Assembly (NCBI GenBank): GCA_021372515.1
Contig: JAJFUG010000207.1
Location: forward strand, 1 to 43,285
Reading direction: 5' to 3'
From: a bacterium
GTDB taxonomy: Bacteria; Gemmatimonadota; Glassbacteria; GWA2-58-10
Length of the DNA: 43,285 nucleotides
Below the pieces are notes generated by a model. It did no database searches, had not been told where the DNA came from, and saw nothing but the letters and a program-made list of their open reading frames with translations. Each line of letters opens with the position of its first letter. The first letter of the stretch is position 1. The position numbers and the translations under genes are program-made. This document shows, in pieces, positions 33,488 to 43,285 of the stretch.

Positions 33488-34870
33488 TCACTCGCCGGGA
33501 GGTTCGGTGGAGGAAGATTTTTCGAGGTCCACGATATGGCTCTTACCCACGTAATCGGCGGTGCGGTAGCGCGAGATGCCGTGGAGCTTCTTGACGATGT
33601 CGGCCACGCGGAGCACCTGCTCGCGGATGGTGACAAGGGACTGGGTGTTCGATTTACCGCAGGTGCAGGCCTTGGCGTTCATGATCGCCAGCTCGCTGTA
33701 GCCCAGGGCGGCCTGCAGGGGCTGGTTGATCTCGTGGCAGGTCGCGCCGGCCAGGGCCAGGGCCGCGGACAGGCGCTCGCGCTTGAGGCTTTCCTCCTGG
33801 TTCTTTTTCGTCTCGGTCATGTCGGTGAACATCAGCCGCATCCCGTCGTTGAATCCACCGCTGTCGTAGATGCGGCTGAAACGGCACCAAGCCGGAATCT
33901 GCCGCCGCTCGGTGGCCAGCACCAGCACCTCGCCCTCCCAGAAATCGAGCTTGCCGTCCAGGATGTCGGTCACGTGAGTCGCAGCCGCCGGCTCGTCGAA
34001 CAGGGCGTCTATTCCGCCGCTTTTCATGTCTTCGAGCGTGCGGCTGAACAGCAGGATGAAAGCCGGGTTGGTGTACACGGCCTGGCCGGATTCATCGGTT
34101 ATCAGGATCGCCTCGCTGGCGCATTCCACAGCCGAGCGGATACGGGTCAGCTCGCGCTGGACCTCCGAGTGGACACGCCTCTGACGGCCGAAACGCAGCC
34201 CGACCCAGAGCAGCCCCGAAAGACCGATAACCCACAGCACAAGATACGACAATCCTGTTTCCAGCAGGTGCATCCGCGCCACTCTGGTCGGACCGTCCAG
34301 CGGCAGCGAGATGCTCAGGCCGTTCTGGACCCCGTCCCGGCCGCCGTGGCAGGTGGAGCATTCATCCGCCCACTTGACCGGGCCCATGAAACGCAAATAG
34401 TTATGGCCCTCCTTGCGGGCCACGGCGTGCACCTCGCTGCTGCCACCCGCCAATTGCACCAGGGCCTCACGCTCCCAGTCATCGGGACGGTTTTCCTCGT
34501 CGAGCGGCTGCTGGCTGGTCAGGTGCAGAAAGGCGCCCGTAACGCCGAAACAAGCCACCGAAAAGTGGCCGGACGAAATTCTCAACCTGTCCAGAGTTGC
34601 CGCAGTCACGCCGGCGCCGGTCTGCTGCGGCGCTGAAAACGGCGTCTGCACCTGGCTGGTATCTCTTTTACCGGTCAACCAGTCCATGAGCAGCAACTCG
34701 CGCTTGAAAGATTCCCGCGCCTCGTTCAGGGCGTATTCCTCTTTCAGATTGCGCTGGGTGTAACAAAACCAGGCAAAGGACAGGGCGACCAGCATGGTCC
34801 AGACCAGCGCCAGGGAACGGATTCCGCCCCGGGTGATGGAGATGTCCTCTTTTTCATCCAATTCAGTCAT
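33488..34870 (-). CDS. DUF3365-type heme sensor with PAS and HisKA domains, no ATPase
   Basis: A 460-residue membrane sensor. A first helix at 17-36 leads to a periplasmic domain (about 40-200) with a single c-type heme motif, CSTCH at 171-175, resembling DUF3365/Tll0287-like sensor domains. A second helix (SYLVLWVIGLSGLLWVGL, about 208-225) precedes a PAS domain (about 240-350, AVECASEAILITDESGQAVYTN) and a histidine dimerisation/phosphoacceptor region (about 365-435). The phosphoacceptor is H379 in CHEINQPLQAALGYSEL. An unusual CTC pair (402-404) lies between the two HisKA helices. The protein stops at 460, so the HATPase_c domain is absent. The start at 34870 follows a weak ribosome site; an upstream ATG at 34972 adds nothing family-like. 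The gene precedes addB on the same strand and is divergent from the PepSY pair. Confidence 0.8.
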   Translation of the reverse strand: MTELDEKEDISITRGGIRSLALVWTMLVALSFAWFCYTQRNLKEEYALNEARESFKRELLLMDWLTGKRDTSQVQTPFSAPQQTGAGVTAATLDRLRISSGHFSVACFGVTGAFLHLTSQQPLDEENRPDDWEREALVQLAGGSSEVHAVARKEGHNYLRFMGPVKWADECSTCHGGRDGVQNGLSISLPLDGPTRVARMHLLETGLSYLVLWVIGLSGLLWVGLRFGRQRRVHSEVQRELTRIRSAVECASEAILITDESGQAVYTNPAFILLFSRTLEDMKSGGIDALFDEPAAATHVTDILDGKLDFWEGEVLVLATERRQIPAWCRFSRIYDSGGFNDGMRLMFTDMTETKKNQEESLKRERLSAALALAGATCHEINQPLQAALGYSELAIMNAKACTCGKSNTQSLVTIREQVLRVADIVKKLHGISRYRTADYVGKSHIVDLEKSSSTEPPGE

Positions 34871-35203
34871 AAATATTCCAGCGTTAGTTACCTTCGGCTT
34901 TCTCGCCGCCGCGGACAAAACAGCGGAGTGACAAAAGACTCCAGGATTCCAACTTAGCATGACGCATGCCACAATCCGGAATACCGTTAATCACTTAAGC
35001 CGCAAACATCTATGCCCCTCACGCCAATAGATCCTGTCCTGATTGAGCCGTTTATCCCGCCCGCGGCTGTACGAAATCGCGCACTGTGTCGGACGGCCCG
35101 TTTCACTTTGCTATAACCGTTATGATAATTCTGGCGTTTAATGCCGAAAGGAATATAATTGGCCTGCGCGCCATAGAAAGTGTTCCCCATCCAGGAGGTG
35201 CCG
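34871..35203. other. divergent control region between sensor and PepSY-type genes
   Basis: A 333-base gap. Near the sensor gene, GCATG and CATGC flank ACG (34957-34969), a 13-base inverted repeat. Near the plus-strand gene, ATAAC and GTTAT flank a single C (35113-35123), a candidate operator in an AT-rich patch that ends in a TATAAT box. No gene was found. Confidence 0.45.
35131..35159 (+). promoter_or_regulatory. possible promoter of the PepSY-type gene pair
   Basis: A perfect TATAAT box (35154-35159) has a weak CTGGCG 17 bases upstream as -35. It is 45 bases from the ATG at 35204. The weak -35 suggests activator dependence. The ATAAC-C-GTTAT repeat at 35113-35123 lies just upstream. Confidence 0.35.
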
Positions 35204-36605: not shown

Positions 36606-36974
36606 CTACTGCTTGTGGCACTCGTCACACTCGCGCGGCCCCACCTCCATCGCACGGTGGCAGTTCAGGCAGTTCTTGTGCAGCGCCACCTTGAGCTCCT
36701 CCACCTCCACCATGTTGATCTCCTTGCTGTGGCAGTGGTCGCAGGACTCGACATGGTGGCACTCGATGCACTCCAGGCCGTAGCCCTGCACGTGGGTCTC
36801 GTGGTCGAACACGATCTGGGTGCCGCCCTTGTACTGGGTCTGGAACACGTGGACCTTGGGCGGCTGCTTGATCTTGGCCTCGATGTTGTAGCCCAGGCGC
36901 ATGTTGGCCCGGATGAGCACCACGTTGGCCACGGCCATCAGCACGAAGCCGATCAACAGGAGCCTCTTCACCAT
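36606..36974 (-). CDS. membrane-anchored tetraheme cytochrome c
   Basis: A 122-residue cytochrome with an uncleaved or signal-type N-terminal helix (LLLIGFVLMAVANVVLI, about 5-21) and four CxxCH motifs at 69-73 (CIECH), 78-82 (CDHCH), 102-106 (CLNCH) and 116-120 (CDECH). Upstream His residues (H58, H61) could be sixth ligands, as in class III/c7 cytochromes. The heme domain would face the periplasm and receive electrons from a quinol-side partner. It is the last gene of an operon with an Fe-S protein and an NrfD/HybB membrane subunit, 28 bases after the NrfD stop. The start at 36974 keeps the membrane helix at the N-terminus. Confidence 0.85.
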   Translation of the reverse strand: MVKRLLLIGFVLMAVANVVLIRANMRLGYNIEAKIKQPPKVHVFQTQYKGGTQIVFDHETHVQGYGLECIECHHVESCDHCHSKEINMVEVEELKVALHKNCLNCHRAMEVGPRECDECHKQ

Positions 36975-37002: not shown

Positions 37003-38151
37003 TTACGCCCCGGCCGACTCCCGGCCCTCTTCCTCGGGGAAGATCGGCAGGTACTTGGCGCAGAGGATGAACACGATGAACCCGCCGGTAACCAGGAACA
37101 GCGAGAGCCAGATCTCCGACCAGGAGGGGAAATAGCTGAAACCTGCCGAGCGCGCCATGCCGACAACGCTCACGTTCAGACGGTTGGTCAGCACGGCCAG
37201 CACGGTGGAAAGCCCCGAGACAAACAGCACCGAGGGCCGCATCCGGTTGCGGAAAGCGAGCATCAGCACCAGCGGCAGCACGAACAGGCTCATTTCAAGC
37301 AGGAAAGCCCAGCTTTCGAGTTTCCCGCTGAACACGGCCGACAGCGGCACCCGGCCCCAGAGGTCCTGCAGCCGCACCACCAGGTGCAGCATCAGGGCCA
37401 CCACCATGAACTGGCCCAGGTCCACCAGGATCTTGGTCTCCAGGCTCTTGCGGAACAGGAAACTGGAAACGTAGCTCTCGACTATCACCATGGCGAAACC
37501 CACTGTCACCGCGCTCAGGAAAAAGTGCAGCGGCAGCAGCGGTGTGTACCACAGCGGGTGCAGCTTGAGCGGCACGATCAGGAACACCGTTCCCAGCGAG
37601 CTCTGGTGCAGGGTGGAAAGCAGCACGCCCGCGATCACGATGGGCAGGGTGAACGAGTGCACCGCGCGCAGCATCCGCTGCGAGCCCAGCTTTTCCAGCA
37701 CCACCGGGCTGAACTCCAGGGCCAGCACCGTGGAATAGAGCATCACGCACCAGGCCACCTCGAACATCACCGAGTGCGGGTTCCACATGATCAGCGGGTG
37801 CCAGATGTTCCAGGGCTTGCCGATGTCGTACAGAAGGCCCAGGCTGACCAGGATGTAGCCCAGGAACGCAGTGAGCACGGTGGGGCGCACCACGCTGCGG
37901 TAGCGCTCGAAATTCAGCAGGTGCACGGTGCCGGTCAGCACGAACCCGCCCGCGGCCAGGGCCACCCCGCCCAGGACATCGAACCCGATCCAGAAGCCCC
38001 AGGGCTGGTGGTCGTTGAGCGCGGTGACCGCGCCCAGCCCGCCGAAAAAGCGCAGGAAAGTGAGCACCACGCCCACTCCCAGAATAATCAGCATGGCGGG
38101 CAGCAGGATATGACGGCCCTTGACGTCCAGGATACGCCACAGTTCCCTCAT
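37003..38151 (-). CDS. NrfD/HybB-family quinone-reactive membrane subunit
   Basis: A 382-residue polytopic membrane protein of the NrfD superfamily, with the HybB-like opening (WRILDVKGRHILLPAMLIILGVGVVLTFLRF) and the segment PWGFWIGFDVLGGVALAAGGFVL. About ten hydrophobic helices can be drawn to the C-terminus. NrfD-type subunits exchange electrons with the quinone pool and may couple this to proton movement. The ATG overlaps the Fe-S gene stop as ATGA, and the tetraheme gene follows after 28 bases, so an Fe-S/NrfD/cytochrome complex is expected, related in plan to Hmc, Qrc or DsrMKJOP modules but with fewer subunits. No molybdopterin subunit is in the window. Confidence 0.88.
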   Translation of the reverse strand: MRELWRILDVKGRHILLPAMLIILGVGVVLTFLRFFGGLGAVTALNDHQPWGFWIGFDVLGGVALAAGGFVLTGTVHLLNFERYRSVVRPTVLTAFLGYILVSLGLLYDIGKPWNIWHPLIMWNPHSVMFEVAWCVMLYSTVLALEFSPVVLEKLGSQRMLRAVHSFTLPIVIAGVLLSTLHQSSLGTVFLIVPLKLHPLWYTPLLPLHFFLSAVTVGFAMVIVESYVSSFLFRKSLETKILVDLGQFMVVALMLHLVVRLQDLWGRVPLSAVFSGKLESWAFLLEMSLFVLPLVLMLAFRNRMRPSVLFVSGLSTVLAVLTNRLNVSVVGMARSAGFSYFPSWSEIWLSLFLVTGGFIVFILCAKYLPIFPEEEGRESAGA

Positions 38152-38933
38152 TGTCCGCCCCCTTTCCGGGAGCGCGGCTCGGTGCCGTCCGGCAGGTCTT
38201 CCCCGCCGGTCTTCTCGAGCTGTATGCGGCGGTTGATGATCCAGCTGATCCCGCCCAGGAGCACCCCGCCGGTGACCACGATCCCCGGGATGCGGCTGAG
38301 CACGGCCCAGGTGAGCGTGGGCAGCGGCTCATCGCCCAGTTTCATCGGGAAACCGAGCCGCTCGAACGGGACGCTTGACAGCATCAGCACACTGGTCCCG
38401 CCGGCATCATGCTCGCCGTAGATATAATTGACGTAGCGCTCCGGCCGCAGGGCGATGCGGGCTCGGGCGATCTCCAGCAGGTGGCTGCGCCGTCCCATGC
38501 GGGTCGCCCCCATCGGGCAGACCCAGGCGCAGGCGGTCTCGCCGCCCGATTCCACCCGGCTGTGGCAGAAAATGCACTTCTCGATCACGGGCACAGGCGA
38601 ATTCCAGTGGTAGCGCGGCACGCCGAACGGGCAGGCCATCATGCAGTAGCGGCAGCCCATGCACTTGTCCGCGTCGTACAGCACCGGCCCGTCCGGGCTC
38701 TTGGTCAGAGCCGCCACCGGGCAGACCGAGACGCAGGTCGGCTCCAGACAGTGCATGCACATCTTGCGGTAGTACATCTCATCGTGCTTGAGCACAACTG
38801 TGTAGTTCGCGGCCGACAGGTCCCGGTCGTTGGGCGTGCCGGTCAGGTGGTTCTCCTGGCGGCAGGCTTTGACGCATTCGCCGCAGCCGATGCACTCGGT
38901 GAAATCGATCAGTATCCCGAGCGGTTCTTCCAT
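38148..38933 (-). CDS. four-cluster 4Fe-4S protein (HybA/DmsB-like) with C-terminal helix
   Basis: A 261-residue electron-transfer protein with 16 cysteines for four 4Fe-4S clusters: CIGCGECVKAC at 14-24, CMHCLEPTCVSVCP, CMGCRYCMMACP, and CIFC with CAWVC. A C-terminal helix (TWAVLSRIPGIVVTGGVLLGGISWIINRR, about 207-231) resembles HybA. I see no Tat or Sec signal; the reading frame reaches an in-frame TAA 12 codons before the ATG, so none can be added upstream. I prefer ATG at 38933 (AGGAG five bases upstream) over GTG at 38939. It should move electrons to or from the NrfD subunit. Its side of the membrane is uncertain: the basic residues after the C-terminal helix suggest the main domain is outside, whereas the absent signal suggests it is inside. 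Confidence 0.85.
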   Translation of the reverse strand: MEEPLGILIDFTECIGCGECVKACRQENHLTGTPNDRDLSAANYTVVLKHDEMYYRKMCMHCLEPTCVSVCPVAALTKSPDGPVLYDADKCMGCRYCMMACPFGVPRYHWNSPVPVIEKCIFCHSRVESGGETACAWVCPMGATRMGRRSHLLEIARARIALRPERYVNYIYGEHDAGGTSVLMLSSVPFERLGFPMKLGDEPLPTLTWAVLSRIPGIVVTGGVLLGGISWIINRRIQLEKTGGEDLPDGTEPRSRKGGGQ

Positions 38934-39595
38934 ATACACTCCTCGAAGCGGGGTTGTCTTGAGAAGCGCTTAAAATATTCTTCTTTTCTGAAGTATGCAA
39001 TTATGTTGAGCCGCTGTCGCTCCGGCTCGCTTGACATGGATTTGCCGTATATGGCATAATCAAATAAGGTGGGATTTTGAAAAACCTCTACAAAATTGTG
39101 GCCGGAACAAATATGTTGTATATTTTTGTTTAACGTAGATGCGTTGCGAAAGTAATGCAATAATTTATTCATACAAGCTTTTTCCGCCTAAATCAAAGCT
39201 TTTCAAGCAAGTAAGAACCACACACGGGAGCGGCCGCACCCGCTCCTCCCGCACTGTCGGCTGCCGGGCCGGACCGGGCGCTATCTGCCCCGGACCGCCC
39301 GTTGGGATAGATAATCTTCATGCCTCCGGGCCGGACAGTATTTCAGTCCTCTCCCGGCCGGGAAGAATGAAACCCGGAGCGTTCCGGGGCCGTTAGACTA
39401 CCTGCGGCTTTCGTTGAACGGGCAGCCCTCCAGATCGAATTGTCCCGGCCATCGGGTCACGGACCCGGCGGCACGGCAACACAGTCTTCCCATATCAATT
39501 GTATCGCGCATCTCCCTCCAGGGATAGAAAGTGCCAGGCGGCGCGGCCGTTTTGCGTCCGGCCCCTGAAAGCGGGACTCAAGCACAGAGGTCAAA
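38934..39595. other. AT-rich divergent control region
   Basis: A 662-base region between two divergent redox operons. Its left half (about 38960-39210) is clearly AT-richer than the rest of the window and contains at least one good minus-strand promoter and possible further -10/-35 boxes, for example TTGATT-17-TATGAA on the minus strand. The right half (about 39220-39595) is GC-rich and shows no gene or clear promoter for the cytochrome operon. An 87-codon minus-strand frame here is treated as spurious. Confidence 0.5.
38972..39000 (-). promoter_or_regulatory. sigma70-like promoter of the Fe-S/NrfD/tetraheme operon
   Basis: On the minus strand TTGCAT (39000-38995), a 17-base spacer and TATTTT (38977-38972) lie 39 bases upstream of the ATG at 38933. 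The region is AT-rich. Motif evidence only. Confidence 0.5.
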
Positions 39596-40864
39596 ATGGA
39601 ATGTAGAAAACGCAGAGTCGGGCGAGTTTTTTCCGGAGCCACACTCTTTCCGGTGCTGCTGGCCCTCTGGCTCGCCTCCGGGGTGACTCCCGCCGCCGCG
39701 GCCGAGGGCCTGGCCGACCAGGCCTGCCTGCACTGCCACCTCAGTCAGGACAGCCTCTGGATTGACACCCTGGCCCTGAGCCACTCTGCGCACTCCGACC
39801 AGACTTGCACCGGCTGCCACACCGATGTCACCACCCTGCCGCACCCGGCCAAACCCGGACCGGTCAACTGCCTGAACTGCCACGAAAACTCCACCGATGT
39901 CCAGGGCAAGCCGGTCGAGCGTTGGCACGACAGCGTGCACGGCCGGGCGGTGGCGGCCGCTCCCGACAGCTCCGGGGCTGCAGTCTGCACCGACTGTCAC
40001 GGACGGCACGACATCCGGGGCCAGGACGACCCGCTTTCCATGGTCAACCGTCGCAACATCCCGCTCACCTGCGCCCGCTGCCACGAGGACAACCGGGTGG
40101 TGCTCAAGCACGACATCCACGCCGAGGCTCCGTATCACGAGTACGAGCGCAGCGTGCACGGCAAGGCGCTGTACAAGGACGGCCTGCTGCAGGTGGCCGC
40201 GGTCTGCACCGACTGCCACGGCGCGCACTCCATCCAGGCCGCCGGCGACAGCCTGCCCATGGCGGCCCAGCCCGCCACCTGCGGCAAGTGCCACGTGGCG
40301 GTGTACGACACCTACCGCGCCAGTATCCACGGCCAGCTGCACCTGGAACGGCACGACCCCAACGCCCCGGGCTGCATCGACTGCCACGGTGAGCACGGCA
40401 TCCTGGCCCCCACCAGCAAGGAGTCCCCGATCAGCCGGGCGAATATCCCCAAGACCTGCGCCTCCTGCCACGCCGACCAGACACGTATGGCCCGGTACGA
40501 TATCTCCACCGATCGCCTGGACACCTACAAGCAGAGTTTCCACGGCACGGCCACGGGCCTGGGCGACCAGAACGCGGCCAACTGCGTCAGCTGCCACGGC
40601 TGGCACGATATCTACCCGGCCTCGGACCCCCGCTCCAGCGTCAACCCGCAGAACATGCTCACCACCTGCGGCAAGTGCCATCCCAAGGCCACGGCCAATT
40701 TCATCGCCGGCAAGATTCATGTGGACGTGCGGTCCAGGAGCGCCGGGGCGGTCTTCTACCTGCGCCGGGCGATGATCTGGCTGGCCTGGGCCGTGGGCGC
40801 TTTCGTGGTTGTCTGGATGGTCCTGGACATAATCCTCAAAAAACGCCGGGGGCGGGATAAATGA
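39596..40864 (+). CDS. 11-heme membrane-anchored cytochrome c (first of a paralogous pair)
   Basis: A 422-residue multiheme cytochrome. The signal peptide (LFPVLLALWLASGVTPAAAA) is followed by eleven CxxCH motifs in order: CLHCH, CTGCH, CLNCH, CTDCH, CARCH, CTDCH, CGKCH, CIDCH, CASCH, CVSCH, CGKCH. Several SVHG, SIHG and SFHG segments between them (HDSVHGRAV, ERSVHGKAL, RASIHGQLH, KQSFHGTAT) supply His residues suited to the sixth axial position. A C-terminal helix (MIWLAWAVGAFVVVWMVLDIIL) with a basic tail (KKRRGRDK) anchors it with the hemes in the periplasm. It leads an operon; its TGA overlaps the next ATG as ATGA. The eleven-heme set and duplication resemble quinol-linked cytochrome modules rather than NrfA or MtrA. 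Its partner is probably the cytochrome b two genes on. Confidence 0.88.
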   Translation: MECRKRRVGRVFSGATLFPVLLALWLASGVTPAAAAEGLADQACLHCHLSQDSLWIDTLALSHSAHSDQTCTGCHTDVTTLPHPAKPGPVNCLNCHENSTDVQGKPVERWHDSVHGRAVAAAPDSSGAAVCTDCHGRHDIRGQDDPLSMVNRRNIPLTCARCHEDNRVVLKHDIHAEAPYHEYERSVHGKALYKDGLLQVAAVCTDCHGAHSIQAAGDSLPMAAQPATCGKCHVAVYDTYRASIHGQLHLERHDPNAPGCIDCHGEHGILAPTSKESPISRANIPKTCASCHADQTRMARYDISTDRLDTYKQSFHGTATGLGDQNAANCVSCHGWHDIYPASDPRSSVNPQNMLTTCGKCHPKATANFIAGKIHVDVRSRSAGAVFYLRRAMIWLAWAVGAFVVVWMVLDIILKKRRGRDK

Positions 40865-42120
40865 CCAGGCGAATACTCCTCCTCCCGGTCCTGCTGTTGC
40901 TCATCGTCCTGGCCGCCACGCTGCACGGCCAGGACACGGCTGTCTGTTTCGAGTGCCACAACGACCAGTCCGCCACCGGCTCACGCGGCGACACGCTCTA
41001 TGTCGACTCCGAGCGCTGGACCGCCTCGGTCCACGCCCAGGCCGGCCTGGAGTGCACCGCCTGCCACCAGGACCTGGCCGGCGTGACCGACTGGCCACAC
41101 CCGGAGAGCCTTAAGAAAGTGGACTGCTCGGCCTGCCACGACAAGGCCATGCTCGACTGGACCGGCAGCGTGCACGGCAAGGCGGCCCACGACAAGGGCG
41201 ACCTTGACGCCGCCGGGTGCGCCGACTGCCACGGCTCGCACTATATCCTGCCGGTCAAGGACCCGCAGAGTCCGGTCTACCCCTCCAACCTGCCGGCCAC
41301 CTGCCTGCGCTGCCACGCCGACAGCAGCCTGGGACTCAAGCACGAGGGTATGGGCAAGCCCGAAAAAGCCAGCCTCTACCTGGGAAGCGTGCACGCCCAG
41401 GCCCTGGAAAAGCGCGGCCTTGTGATCTCGGCCACCTGCTCGAGCTGCCACGGCTCACACAGCATCCAGCCGCTGGACAAGTTCCTGGCCGGCATTCCCC
41501 GCACCTGCGGCGAGTGCCACGCCGGCATCTACCGGGACTATGTGGAGGGCGTGCACGGCGCGGAGTACCTTAAAGGCAACCGGGATGTCCCGCTCTGCAC
41601 CGACTGCCACGGCGAGCACGACATCCGCCCGCCGGATGACCCCGAGAGCCGGGTGAACCCGCGCCAGCTGGCCCAGGTCTGCTCGCGCTGCCACGAGGAC
41701 CAGAGCCTGAGCGCCAAGTACGGCCTGCCCCTGGGACGGCTGGACAGCTATCTGACCAGCTACCACGGCGTGGCGCTCAAGCTGGGCGACATGCGTGTGG
41801 CCAACTGCGCCAGTTGCCACGGGTTCCACAACATCCGGCCCTCAAGCGACCCCAAAAGCCCGGTCAACCCGGCCAACCTGGCCGCCACCTGCGGCAAGTG
41901 CCACCCCAACGCCGGGGAGAATTTCGCCAAGGGCAAGATCCACGTGCAGGGCCAGCCGCACGAGAACCTGGGCGCTTGGCTGGTCAAGCGGGCCTATGTG
42001 CTGCTGATCCTGGCCCTGGTGGGCGGGTTCGTGGGCTACATCACGCTCGACCTGGCCGCGCGTCGCCGCAGACGGACGCAGGGCGGCGATAAAGAAGAAG
42101 GCCCGGAGAAAAAGCCATGA
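40861..42120 (+). CDS. 11-heme membrane-anchored cytochrome c (second paralogue)
   Basis: A 419-residue paralogue of the preceding cytochrome. After the signal peptide (ILLLPVLLLLIVLAATLHG) come CFECH, CTACH, CSACH, CADCH, CLRCH, CSSCH, CGECH, CTDCH, CSRCH, CASCH and CGKCH, eleven motifs in the same spacing order. The SVHA, SVHG, GVHG and YHG segments (TASVHAQAG, TGSVHGKAA, LGSVHAQAL) are again present. A C-terminal helix (YVLLILALVGGFVGYITLDLA) and a basic tail (RRRRRTQGGDKEE) anchor it. It overlaps the gene before it (ATGA at 40861) and the one after it (ATGA at 42117), which ties synthesis of all three proteins together. Sequence divergence between the two cytochromes suggests separate positions in a relay. 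Confidence 0.88.
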   Translation: MTRRILLLPVLLLLIVLAATLHGQDTAVCFECHNDQSATGSRGDTLYVDSERWTASVHAQAGLECTACHQDLAGVTDWPHPESLKKVDCSACHDKAMLDWTGSVHGKAAHDKGDLDAAGCADCHGSHYILPVKDPQSPVYPSNLPATCLRCHADSSLGLKHEGMGKPEKASLYLGSVHAQALEKRGLVISATCSSCHGSHSIQPLDKFLAGIPRTCGECHAGIYRDYVEGVHGAEYLKGNRDVPLCTDCHGEHDIRPPDDPESRVNPRQLAQVCSRCHEDQSLSAKYGLPLGRLDSYLTSYHGVALKLGDMRVANCASCHGFHNIRPSSDPKSPVNPANLAATCGKCHPNAGENFAKGKIHVQGQPHENLGAWLVKRAYVLLILALVGGFVGYITLDLAARRRRRTQGGDKEEGPEKKP

Positions 42121-42920
42121 GCGCGCGAGAGGACGAATACGCCGACCGCCTGGTCGAACACGAGGGCCGTCTGTACTACCAGCGCTTTTCAGTGGTCCAG
42201 CGGGTCCAGCATATCCTGCTCTTTTCGAGCTTTTTCGCCCTGATCGCCACCGGCATGCCTCTGCTGTTCGCCGGCAGCCCGCTCGTGCGCCACATGTTTT
42301 TCTTCGAAGGGGCCTACGAGCTGCGCGGGCTGATCCACCGGGTTGCCGCGGTGGTGCTCCTGGCGGCGTCGGTGTTTCATGTGTTCTACGTGCTGTTCAG
42401 CGTGCGCGGCAACAGCGACCTTCGGCGCATGGTGGTCTGGATCGACGACATCCGCCAGGCGTTCGCCATGCTGAGTTTCAACCTTGGACGCAGCGGCGAG
42501 CCGCCCCGTTTCGACCGTTTCAATTTCATCGAGAAATTCGAGTACTACGCCGCGGCCTGGGGCAGCGCGATCATGCTGGCCACCGGGGCCTGCCTCTGGT
42601 TCCCGGTCCAGGCTACGCTGGTGTTCCCGCGGCCCGTGCTCGACATCATCCGTGTGATCCACGGCTTCGAGGCGATCCTGGCTTTCCTGGCGGTGATCAT
42701 CTGGCACATGTACAACGTGCACCTGAACCCGGAGGTGTTCCCGATGAGCCGGGTCTGGATGAACGGCCGCATGGAGCTGGAGCACCTGGCCGAGCACCAC
42801 CCGCTGGAGTTCGAGCGCATGCTGCGGCACATCCCGGCGGATATGGCCGGACGGGTGCGGGCGCAGATGGGCGTGCATTTCCCCTCCGGCCCCACAGTGT
42901 CCGGGGCCGTCACGACCTGA
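42117..42920 (+). CDS. cytochrome b membrane subunit (b/b6- or FdhI-like)
   Basis: A 267-residue membrane cytochrome b with about four helices (VQRVQHILLFSSFFALIATGMPLLF, GLIHRVAAVVLLAASVFHVFYVLF, AAAWGSAIMLATGACLWF, HGFEAILAFLAVIIWHMYNV). Likely b-heme ligands are H32, H74, H88, H182, H197 and H202, a pattern for two hemes as in formate dehydrogenase gamma and related quinone-linked b subunits. It has no signal peptide and opens with an acidic cytoplasmic tail. It follows two 11-heme cytochromes with an ATGA overlap, and a third multiheme cytochrome follows after 42 bases. It probably carries electrons between menaquinone and the periplasmic hemes; the direction is inferred. Confidence 0.85.
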   Translation: MSAREDEYADRLVEHEGRLYYQRFSVVQRVQHILLFSSFFALIATGMPLLFAGSPLVRHMFFFEGAYELRGLIHRVAAVVLLAASVFHVFYVLFSVRGNSDLRRMVVWIDDIRQAFAMLSFNLGRSGEPPRFDRFNFIEKFEYYAAAWGSAIMLATGACLWFPVQATLVFPRPVLDIIRVIHGFEAILAFLAVIIWHMYNVHLNPEVFPMSRVWMNGRMELEHLAEHHPLEFERMLRHIPADMAGRVRAQMGVHFPSGPTVSGAVTT

Positions 42921-42962
42921 CAGAGACAACTGAACCATTCAACTCTTTACGGAACCCGGCGC

Positions 42963-43285
42963 ATGCACGCACTCGACCTTGAACGTTCTGTCACGAGCCG
43001 CAAAGCAGCCGCTTTTTGCCTCGTCCTGCCGCTTTTCTTACTCGGCCTGTTTGTCGCCCGGCCCGCCGCGGCCCAGGATTCCAAAGTCTGCCTGACCTGC
43101 CACGGCCAGACCGACCTGAGCACAACTGATTCCAGCGGAGCCGAGCACTCGCTCTATATCCGCGCGGCCCAGCTGGACAGCTCCAGCCACGCGTCCTTAA
43201 GCTGCGTGGACTGCCACGCCGCCCTGGCCGGAGTGGATGAGGGCGGCCACGACACCCCGGTGCCGCAGGTGGACTGTTCCACCTG
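42963..43285 (+). CDS. third multiheme cytochrome c, cut by window end
   Basis: Incomplete: 107 residues are visible before the window ends without a stop. The signal peptide (FCLVLPLFLLGLFVARPAAAQ) is followed by CLTCH and CVDCH, and a third motif is cut at CSTC. The spacing and SSHASLSC segment match the start of the two 11-heme cytochromes, so this is a third relative. It lies 42 bases after the cytochrome b stop, a wider gap than between its upstream neighbours. Its full heme number cannot be seen. Confidence 0.7.
   Translation, partial: MHALDLERSVTSRKAAAFCLVLPLFLLGLFVARPAAAQDSKVCLTCHGQTDLSTTDSSGAEHSLYIRAAQLDSSSHASLSCVDCHAALAGVDEGGHDTPVPQVDCST

Follow-up and report, generated by a model that had tools for sequence, protein, structure and literature searches.

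The gene cluster that closes the window (the entire contig of 43285 bases, C207, of the 99.5% complete genome G000, which is placed in the Ca. Glassbacteria group) carries two units of one type, each of which links a multiheme c-type cytochrome part to a diheme-type cytochrome b part. One of these c–b units is split over genes B and C, the other is represented by gene D, and sequence comparison shows that the two, although of one type, diverged anciently. Good support for the predicted function, that of a quinone-linked multiheme/cytochrome b oxidoreductase, comes from a fold like that of FdnI, the gamma subunit of E. coli formate dehydrogenase N (PDB 1kqf, chain C), from conserved heme ligands, and from the c and b parts being found clustered or fused again and again in different phyla. 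What appears to be new is the repeated occurrence, across phyla, of two such long-separated units in tandem, and B+C and D are probably used together. The features of the cluster are as follows.

39596..40864, + strand: gene A, 422 aa, 11 CXXCH motifs, signal-like N-terminus, C-terminal transmembrane (TM) helix, without a b domain of its own
40861..42120, + strand: gene B, 419 aa, 11 CXXCH motifs, signal-like N-terminus, C-terminal TM helix
41974..42060, + strand: C-terminal TM helix of B (about aa 372-400), located by hydropathy; its motif recurs inside the fused L116 and L131 proteins
42117..42920, + strand: gene C, 267-aa diheme-type cytochrome b, FdnI-like, with likely heme ligands H32, H74, H182, and H197
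42963..43285, + strand: gene D, first 107 aa, 2 CXXCH motifs, cut by the contig end

An earlier note on this DNA had described two 11-heme membrane proteins with ATGA overlaps at the first two junctions, and both the proteins (A and B, with the C-terminal TM helix of A at about aa 391-416) and the overlaps, at A/B and B/C, are indeed present, followed by a C/D gap of 42 nt. The count given there, 22 motifs in the first two proteins and at least two in the third, agrees with the 11, 11, and 2 (in the visible 107 aa) found here. In the six-frame translation of the window, 24 of the 31 CXXCH motifs, far above chance, lie inside A, B, and D, and all seven frames of the cluster and its neighbours have the high third-position G+C expected of real genes here. 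C has four predicted TM segments and no c-heme motif; the proposal of a probable diheme cytochrome b is upheld by a PF01292 match above the Pfam cut-off, the FdnI fold, and four conserved histidines. The third multiheme protein, D, is cut short at the contig end; its relatives show it to be an 11-heme domain joined to another cytochrome b in one protein. D, the relatedness of which had been questioned, has a heme domain homologous to those of A and B along the whole 11-heme stretch, and this three-fold use of one scaffold in a single operon looks new. A sigma-70-like promoter match at 39031-39060 (11/12), 535 bases from A, was not used, being one match against 0.6 expected by chance.

The model of C (pLDDT 88.8) has an FdnI-like fold, with 1kqf_C found by Foldseek at E=1.3e-5 and all other matches at E>0.6, and the family profile of C matches FdnI at E=1.3e-16; the identity is only 16–17%. 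H32, H74, and H182 of C align directly with histidines of FdnI that are presumably its heme ligands, and H197 lies beside a one-residue gap opposite the next FdnI histidine. These four residues are conserved in 131–132 of 133 b domains, and H88 in 123 of 133. On the c side, 94 eleven-heme proteins drawn from many phyla share 22 histidines at 95% conservation or more, 11 of them in the motifs and 11 elsewhere, as would be expected were every heme bis-His ligated. Over about 90 loci in many phyla, the 11 CXXCH motifs, the 11 distal histidines, and the 4 b-heme histidines are nearly invariant.

In the fused proteins, the counterpart of the C-terminal helix of B is helix 1. Two Myxococcota-type loci, L116 and L131, have the B and C parts in one continuous ORF, with local sequence likeness to B (GGFIAYIVLD vs GGFVGYITLD). 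By this correspondence, B+C is predicted to be a CbcL-type c–b unit encoded on two genes. L056, a candidate fused form of the L057 split pair, was discarded, because its apparent fusion crosses an X stretch (an assembly gap).

The full form of D was read from its orthologs in five genomes of the same family, which are 701–736 aa long and have an 11-heme domain with 10–11 CXXCH motifs (the G001 copy having 10) ahead of a PF01292-type cytochrome b. The 107 residues present in the window match the start of these orthologs (43% identity over 78 aa). In the AlphaFold model of the ortholog from G004 (Candidatus Glassbacteria, contig JAUVUV010000003.1; 52 homologs, pLDDT 87), six long membrane-type helices follow the heme domain, and the sole significant fold match in the PDB is FdnI, 1kqf_C. 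D is thus classed as a protein of the CbcL/MtrH/MtoC type, the six-helix b domain of the window copy being assigned by orthology only. The remainder of D was not found on the other contigs of its own genome, and its truncation there counts against the reading preferred here.

The linkage of the two parts extends far beyond this family. A scan of genome contigs with the 11-heme alignment yielded at least 80 loci, distributed among the matches listed over Aminicenantes, Poribacteria, Armatimonadota, Omnitrophota, KSB1, Zixibacteria, Acidobacteriota, Verrucomicrobiota, and other phyla, and in nearly all of them the c and b parts are fused or adjacent. As a check unbiased by the c part, the b domain alone was compared with 395 genomes of the phylum, 71 of which have a match; a multiheme stretch occurs in the same or the next ORF in 29 of the 30 loci fetched in this way, the exception being L146, which lies at a contig start. 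The c–b genes of the window, whose clustering elsewhere had been in doubt, do therefore cluster elsewhere. The idea of a new quinol-to-cytochrome oxidoreductase survives as to the quinone–multiheme kind, which is well supported, and fails as to novelty of kind, D being CbcL-type and B+C its split equivalent.

In the tree of b domains, C falls into the deep group T3 with other split units and D into T2 with the 19-heme and 11-heme fusions; T1 holds most of the lone fusions, and T4 a further set of split units. C and D, placed in separate deep groups, are therefore not a recent duplication. Among the matches listed, neighbouring b units belong to different clades in 39 of 41 pairs, where shuffling of the labels leads to an expectation of 29.8 pairs from different groups (p about 0.0002, uncorrected for relatedness). 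Both homotypic pairs come from L043, the long ORFs of which overlap in other frames, and are unreliable. The heme-domain tree mirrors the grouping of the b domains, including that of the split pairs L127 and L063/L067. The parsed list of the phylum search contains 67 genomes, and 45 of these have at least two copies, lying within 4.5 kb of each other in 29 and farther apart in 16. Targeted literature searches retrieved no description of the two-clade pairing, which is weak evidence of its novelty. Fusions of ~940 aa, combining 19 CXXCH motifs with a cytochrome b, form a subgroup of their own and usually stand beside an 11–13-heme fusion (L039:7191-10013, L040:9731-12532, and others).

Within the six genomes of the Glassbacteria family (G000-G005), B-C-D is retained in four relatives, and B is 62–65% identical to its four family orthologs. 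A is present in two relatives (G001 and G002); it is not a core part and is found only in a subset of the family. In G003-G005, D is followed by a 17-heme protein with a NapC-like start (L036:12320-14320, L037:9800-11803, L038:5011-7011), a gene that is absent from the genome studied here. Divergent from the cluster lie three further genes of the window.

38148..38939, - strand: HybA/HmcB-like protein of the 4x[4Fe-4S] type, C-terminal TM helix, no Tat signal
37003..38151, - strand: NrfD/HmcC-like membrane protein (PF03916)
36606..36974, - strand: small cytochrome, 122 aa, four CXXCH motifs, candidate periplasmic electron carrier, with 122-aa orthologs in L034 and L038

The Tat signal of the HybA-like protein is absent in the Glassbacteria family (window, L034, L035, and L038), whereas the relatives in other phyla (L065, L075, L087, L094, and L077) begin with a twin-arginine motif. 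A sensor-kinase-like protein, encoded at 33488-34972 on the - strand, has one CXXCH motif (CSTCH, aa 205) flanked by two TM segments and may be a heme-based sensor near the cluster. A second multiheme cluster of the same genome, at 9000-28000 of contig C39 (L133), contains a candidate SlipAM-like barrel protein, an 11-heme and a 14-heme lipoprotein-like cytochrome, a Rieske protein and cytochrome b accompanied by a 9-heme protein, and a 9-heme protein whose C-terminal domain is FlgD-like, possibly amounting to an outer-membrane conduit and a multiheme bc complex. The genome-wide CXXCH count (280 vs 148 in the backward control, about twice) was useful only for locating this cluster.

It is likely that A-B-C-D encode inner-membrane quinone:multiheme cytochrome c oxidoreductases (menaquinol/quinone by the preferred reading) working in the manner of CbcL and CbcBA, with a probable role in extracellular or periplasmic electron transfer. 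Two b hemes would be held in the FdnI-like helix bundle of C, and likewise in that of D's b domain. Homology to CbcL and FdnI leads one to expect a quinone site near the cytoplasmic side of the b domain, where quinol would be oxidised or quinone reduced. Electrons would cross the membrane via the two b hemes, reach the first c heme, and enter an eleven-heme periplasmic wire, which would be B in the case of C and its own N-terminal domain in the case of D, A serving as an additional 11-heme relay. From the wire they could pass to small periplasmic cytochromes, possibly the divergent c7-like protein, and then to a periplasmic or extracellular acceptor, or they could run in reverse from a donor. 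The multiheme cluster on C39 is a candidate exit. This exit route is a proposal only, since a search of the genome for an MtrB/PioB porin found none, and no ImcH-like match was found in the six Glassbacteria-family genomes; both results count against the preferred reading. In 30 of 69 loci among the matches listed, an ImcH-like gene lies no more than 2.5 kb from the T1 relative, an adjacency that supports a role of the wider family in extracellular respiration.

We can speculate further that the paired diverged units, here B+C and D, form one heteromeric complex in many uncultured phyla, which would contain two quinone sites, four b hemes, and no fewer than 22 c hemes; one unit might oxidise quinone and the other reduce it, or the pair might feed two acceptors. 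Such a complex must be considered rather unlikely. That B-C and D are instead independent neighbouring CbcL-like oxidoreductases, each tuned to the potential of its own acceptor, with no joint complex, is a real possibility, not far short of even. Geobacter deploys separate inner-membrane quinol oxidases (CbcL, CbcBA, and ImcH) according to potential (PMC12307469), a single unit is found in many loci, and the copies are not within 4.5 kb in 16 of the 45 multi-copy genomes. In G005, D and the HybA/NrfD/c7 set are present with B-C not nearby, which also counts against the preferred reading. Joint use of the two units is favoured by the recurrence of different-clade tandems in many phyla (39 of 41 pairs), which is no proof of a complex, and by the proximity of the copies in 29 of the 67 genomes.

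The neighbouring genes bear on another arrangement, in which the c–b genes and the divergent HybA-NrfD-c7 genes would build one larger Hmc- or alternative-complex-III-like assembly, its heme wires joining two kinds of quinone site in a quinone loop or at an entry point for other donors rather than at an exit to the outside. HybA/NrfD-like genes adjoin c–b units in G000, G001, G002, and G005, in Omnitrophota and Verrucomicrobiota they directly follow fused units (L065, L075, L087, and L094), and the best NCBIfam profiles of the neighbours are HmcB and HmcC. Yet the two gene sets are divergent here and do not form one operon, G003 has no HybA set beside B-C-D, most of the at least 80 loci have no HybA/NrfD nearby, and the HmcB/HmcC scores are under the curated cut-offs, which makes such an assembly distinctly unlikely. 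Delivery of electrons to a periplasmic reductase (of nitrite, for example, or another soluble acceptor) in place of extracellular electron transfer would be in keeping with the negative search of the genome for an MtrB/PioB porin, and with the weak matches of the heme domains to NrfB/DmsE-type profiles. These scores, however, are far under the curated cut-offs, the same genome has 14-heme lipoprotein-like and 11-heme outer-membrane-conduit-like proteins in one cluster, and the published CbcL/MtrH/MtoC family is tied to extracellular electron transfer (PMC6295460), so that this destination, too, is judged unlikely. The oxidoreductases of the CbcL/CbcBA working type remain the preferred reading of the cluster. 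Enzymes of the CbcL type, which serve in the respiration of extracellular metals, set the redox window for respiration outside the cell and, if tandem use is common, annotation and models of extracellular electron transfer for Acidobacteriota, Omnitrophota, Zixibacteria, Hydrogenedentes, Glassbacteria, and others would need a second partner. The pairing predicts co-purification of the two units and a joint phenotype.

The likeness of the cluster to Hmc lies in its neighbours, a HybA/HmcB-like gene, an NrfD/HmcC-like gene, and that of a small cytochrome; unlike Hmc, the window has no 16-heme HmcA and its HybA-like protein has no Tat signal, and membership of the neighbours in Hmc was rejected at NF045714/NF045715 scores of 235.8 vs 420 and 316.9 vs 550 (curated cut-offs). 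A and B are likewise not DmsE/MtrA decahemes (TIGR03508, 46.8 bits for A and 55.0 for B vs a cut-off of 192.2). C shares with FdnI its fold and heme-ligand histidines, as does the b domain of D, although the partner is a multiheme wire and not an Fe-S/Mo enzyme; C is not FdnI proper (TIGR01583, 46.5 bits vs a cut-off of 115.85). The features of ImcH (three N-terminal TM helices, CX3CH beside TM3, and about six CX2CH) were not found in the window set and were found in neighbours of T1 relatives. Such ImcH-like genes, with three N-terminal TM helices, CX3CH, and five to six CX2CH, stand beside CbcL-like T1 genes at L112:11871-13526 and about 34 other loci, in Acidobacteriota, Omnitrophota, and others.

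In CbcBA of Geobacter, the multiheme c-type and the b-type cytochrome are encoded by separate genes. By description, the present set shares this division of one inner-membrane oxidoreductase between genes (role of CbcBA: PMC12307469, PMC10553843), and differs in heme number and gene order. In Mco of ANME archaea, a proposed methanophenazine:cytochrome c oxidoreductase, a cytochrome b gene lies beside that of a 7–11-heme cytochrome (PMC9012536); the likeness is one of gene arrangement. Mco is archaeal, has a VhtC-type cytochrome b, and has the b gene first. CbcL itself, of Geobacter sulfurreducens, consists of nine c hemes and then a six-helix diheme b domain (PMC9129911), and the CbcL/MtrH/MtoC family, which spans 416–1034 aa, 3–23 hemes, and 15 phyla, is implicated in both directions of electron flow (PMC6295460). 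Likened by published layout, D as seen in its relatives has the same succession of a multiheme c domain and a six-helix HydC/FdnI-type diheme b domain, with all hemes apparently bis-His and a similarly wide range of phyla. The set described here departs from CbcL in its 11 c hemes rather than nine, in the distribution of the B+C unit over two genes, in the tandem of two different units, and in the extra 11-heme gene A.
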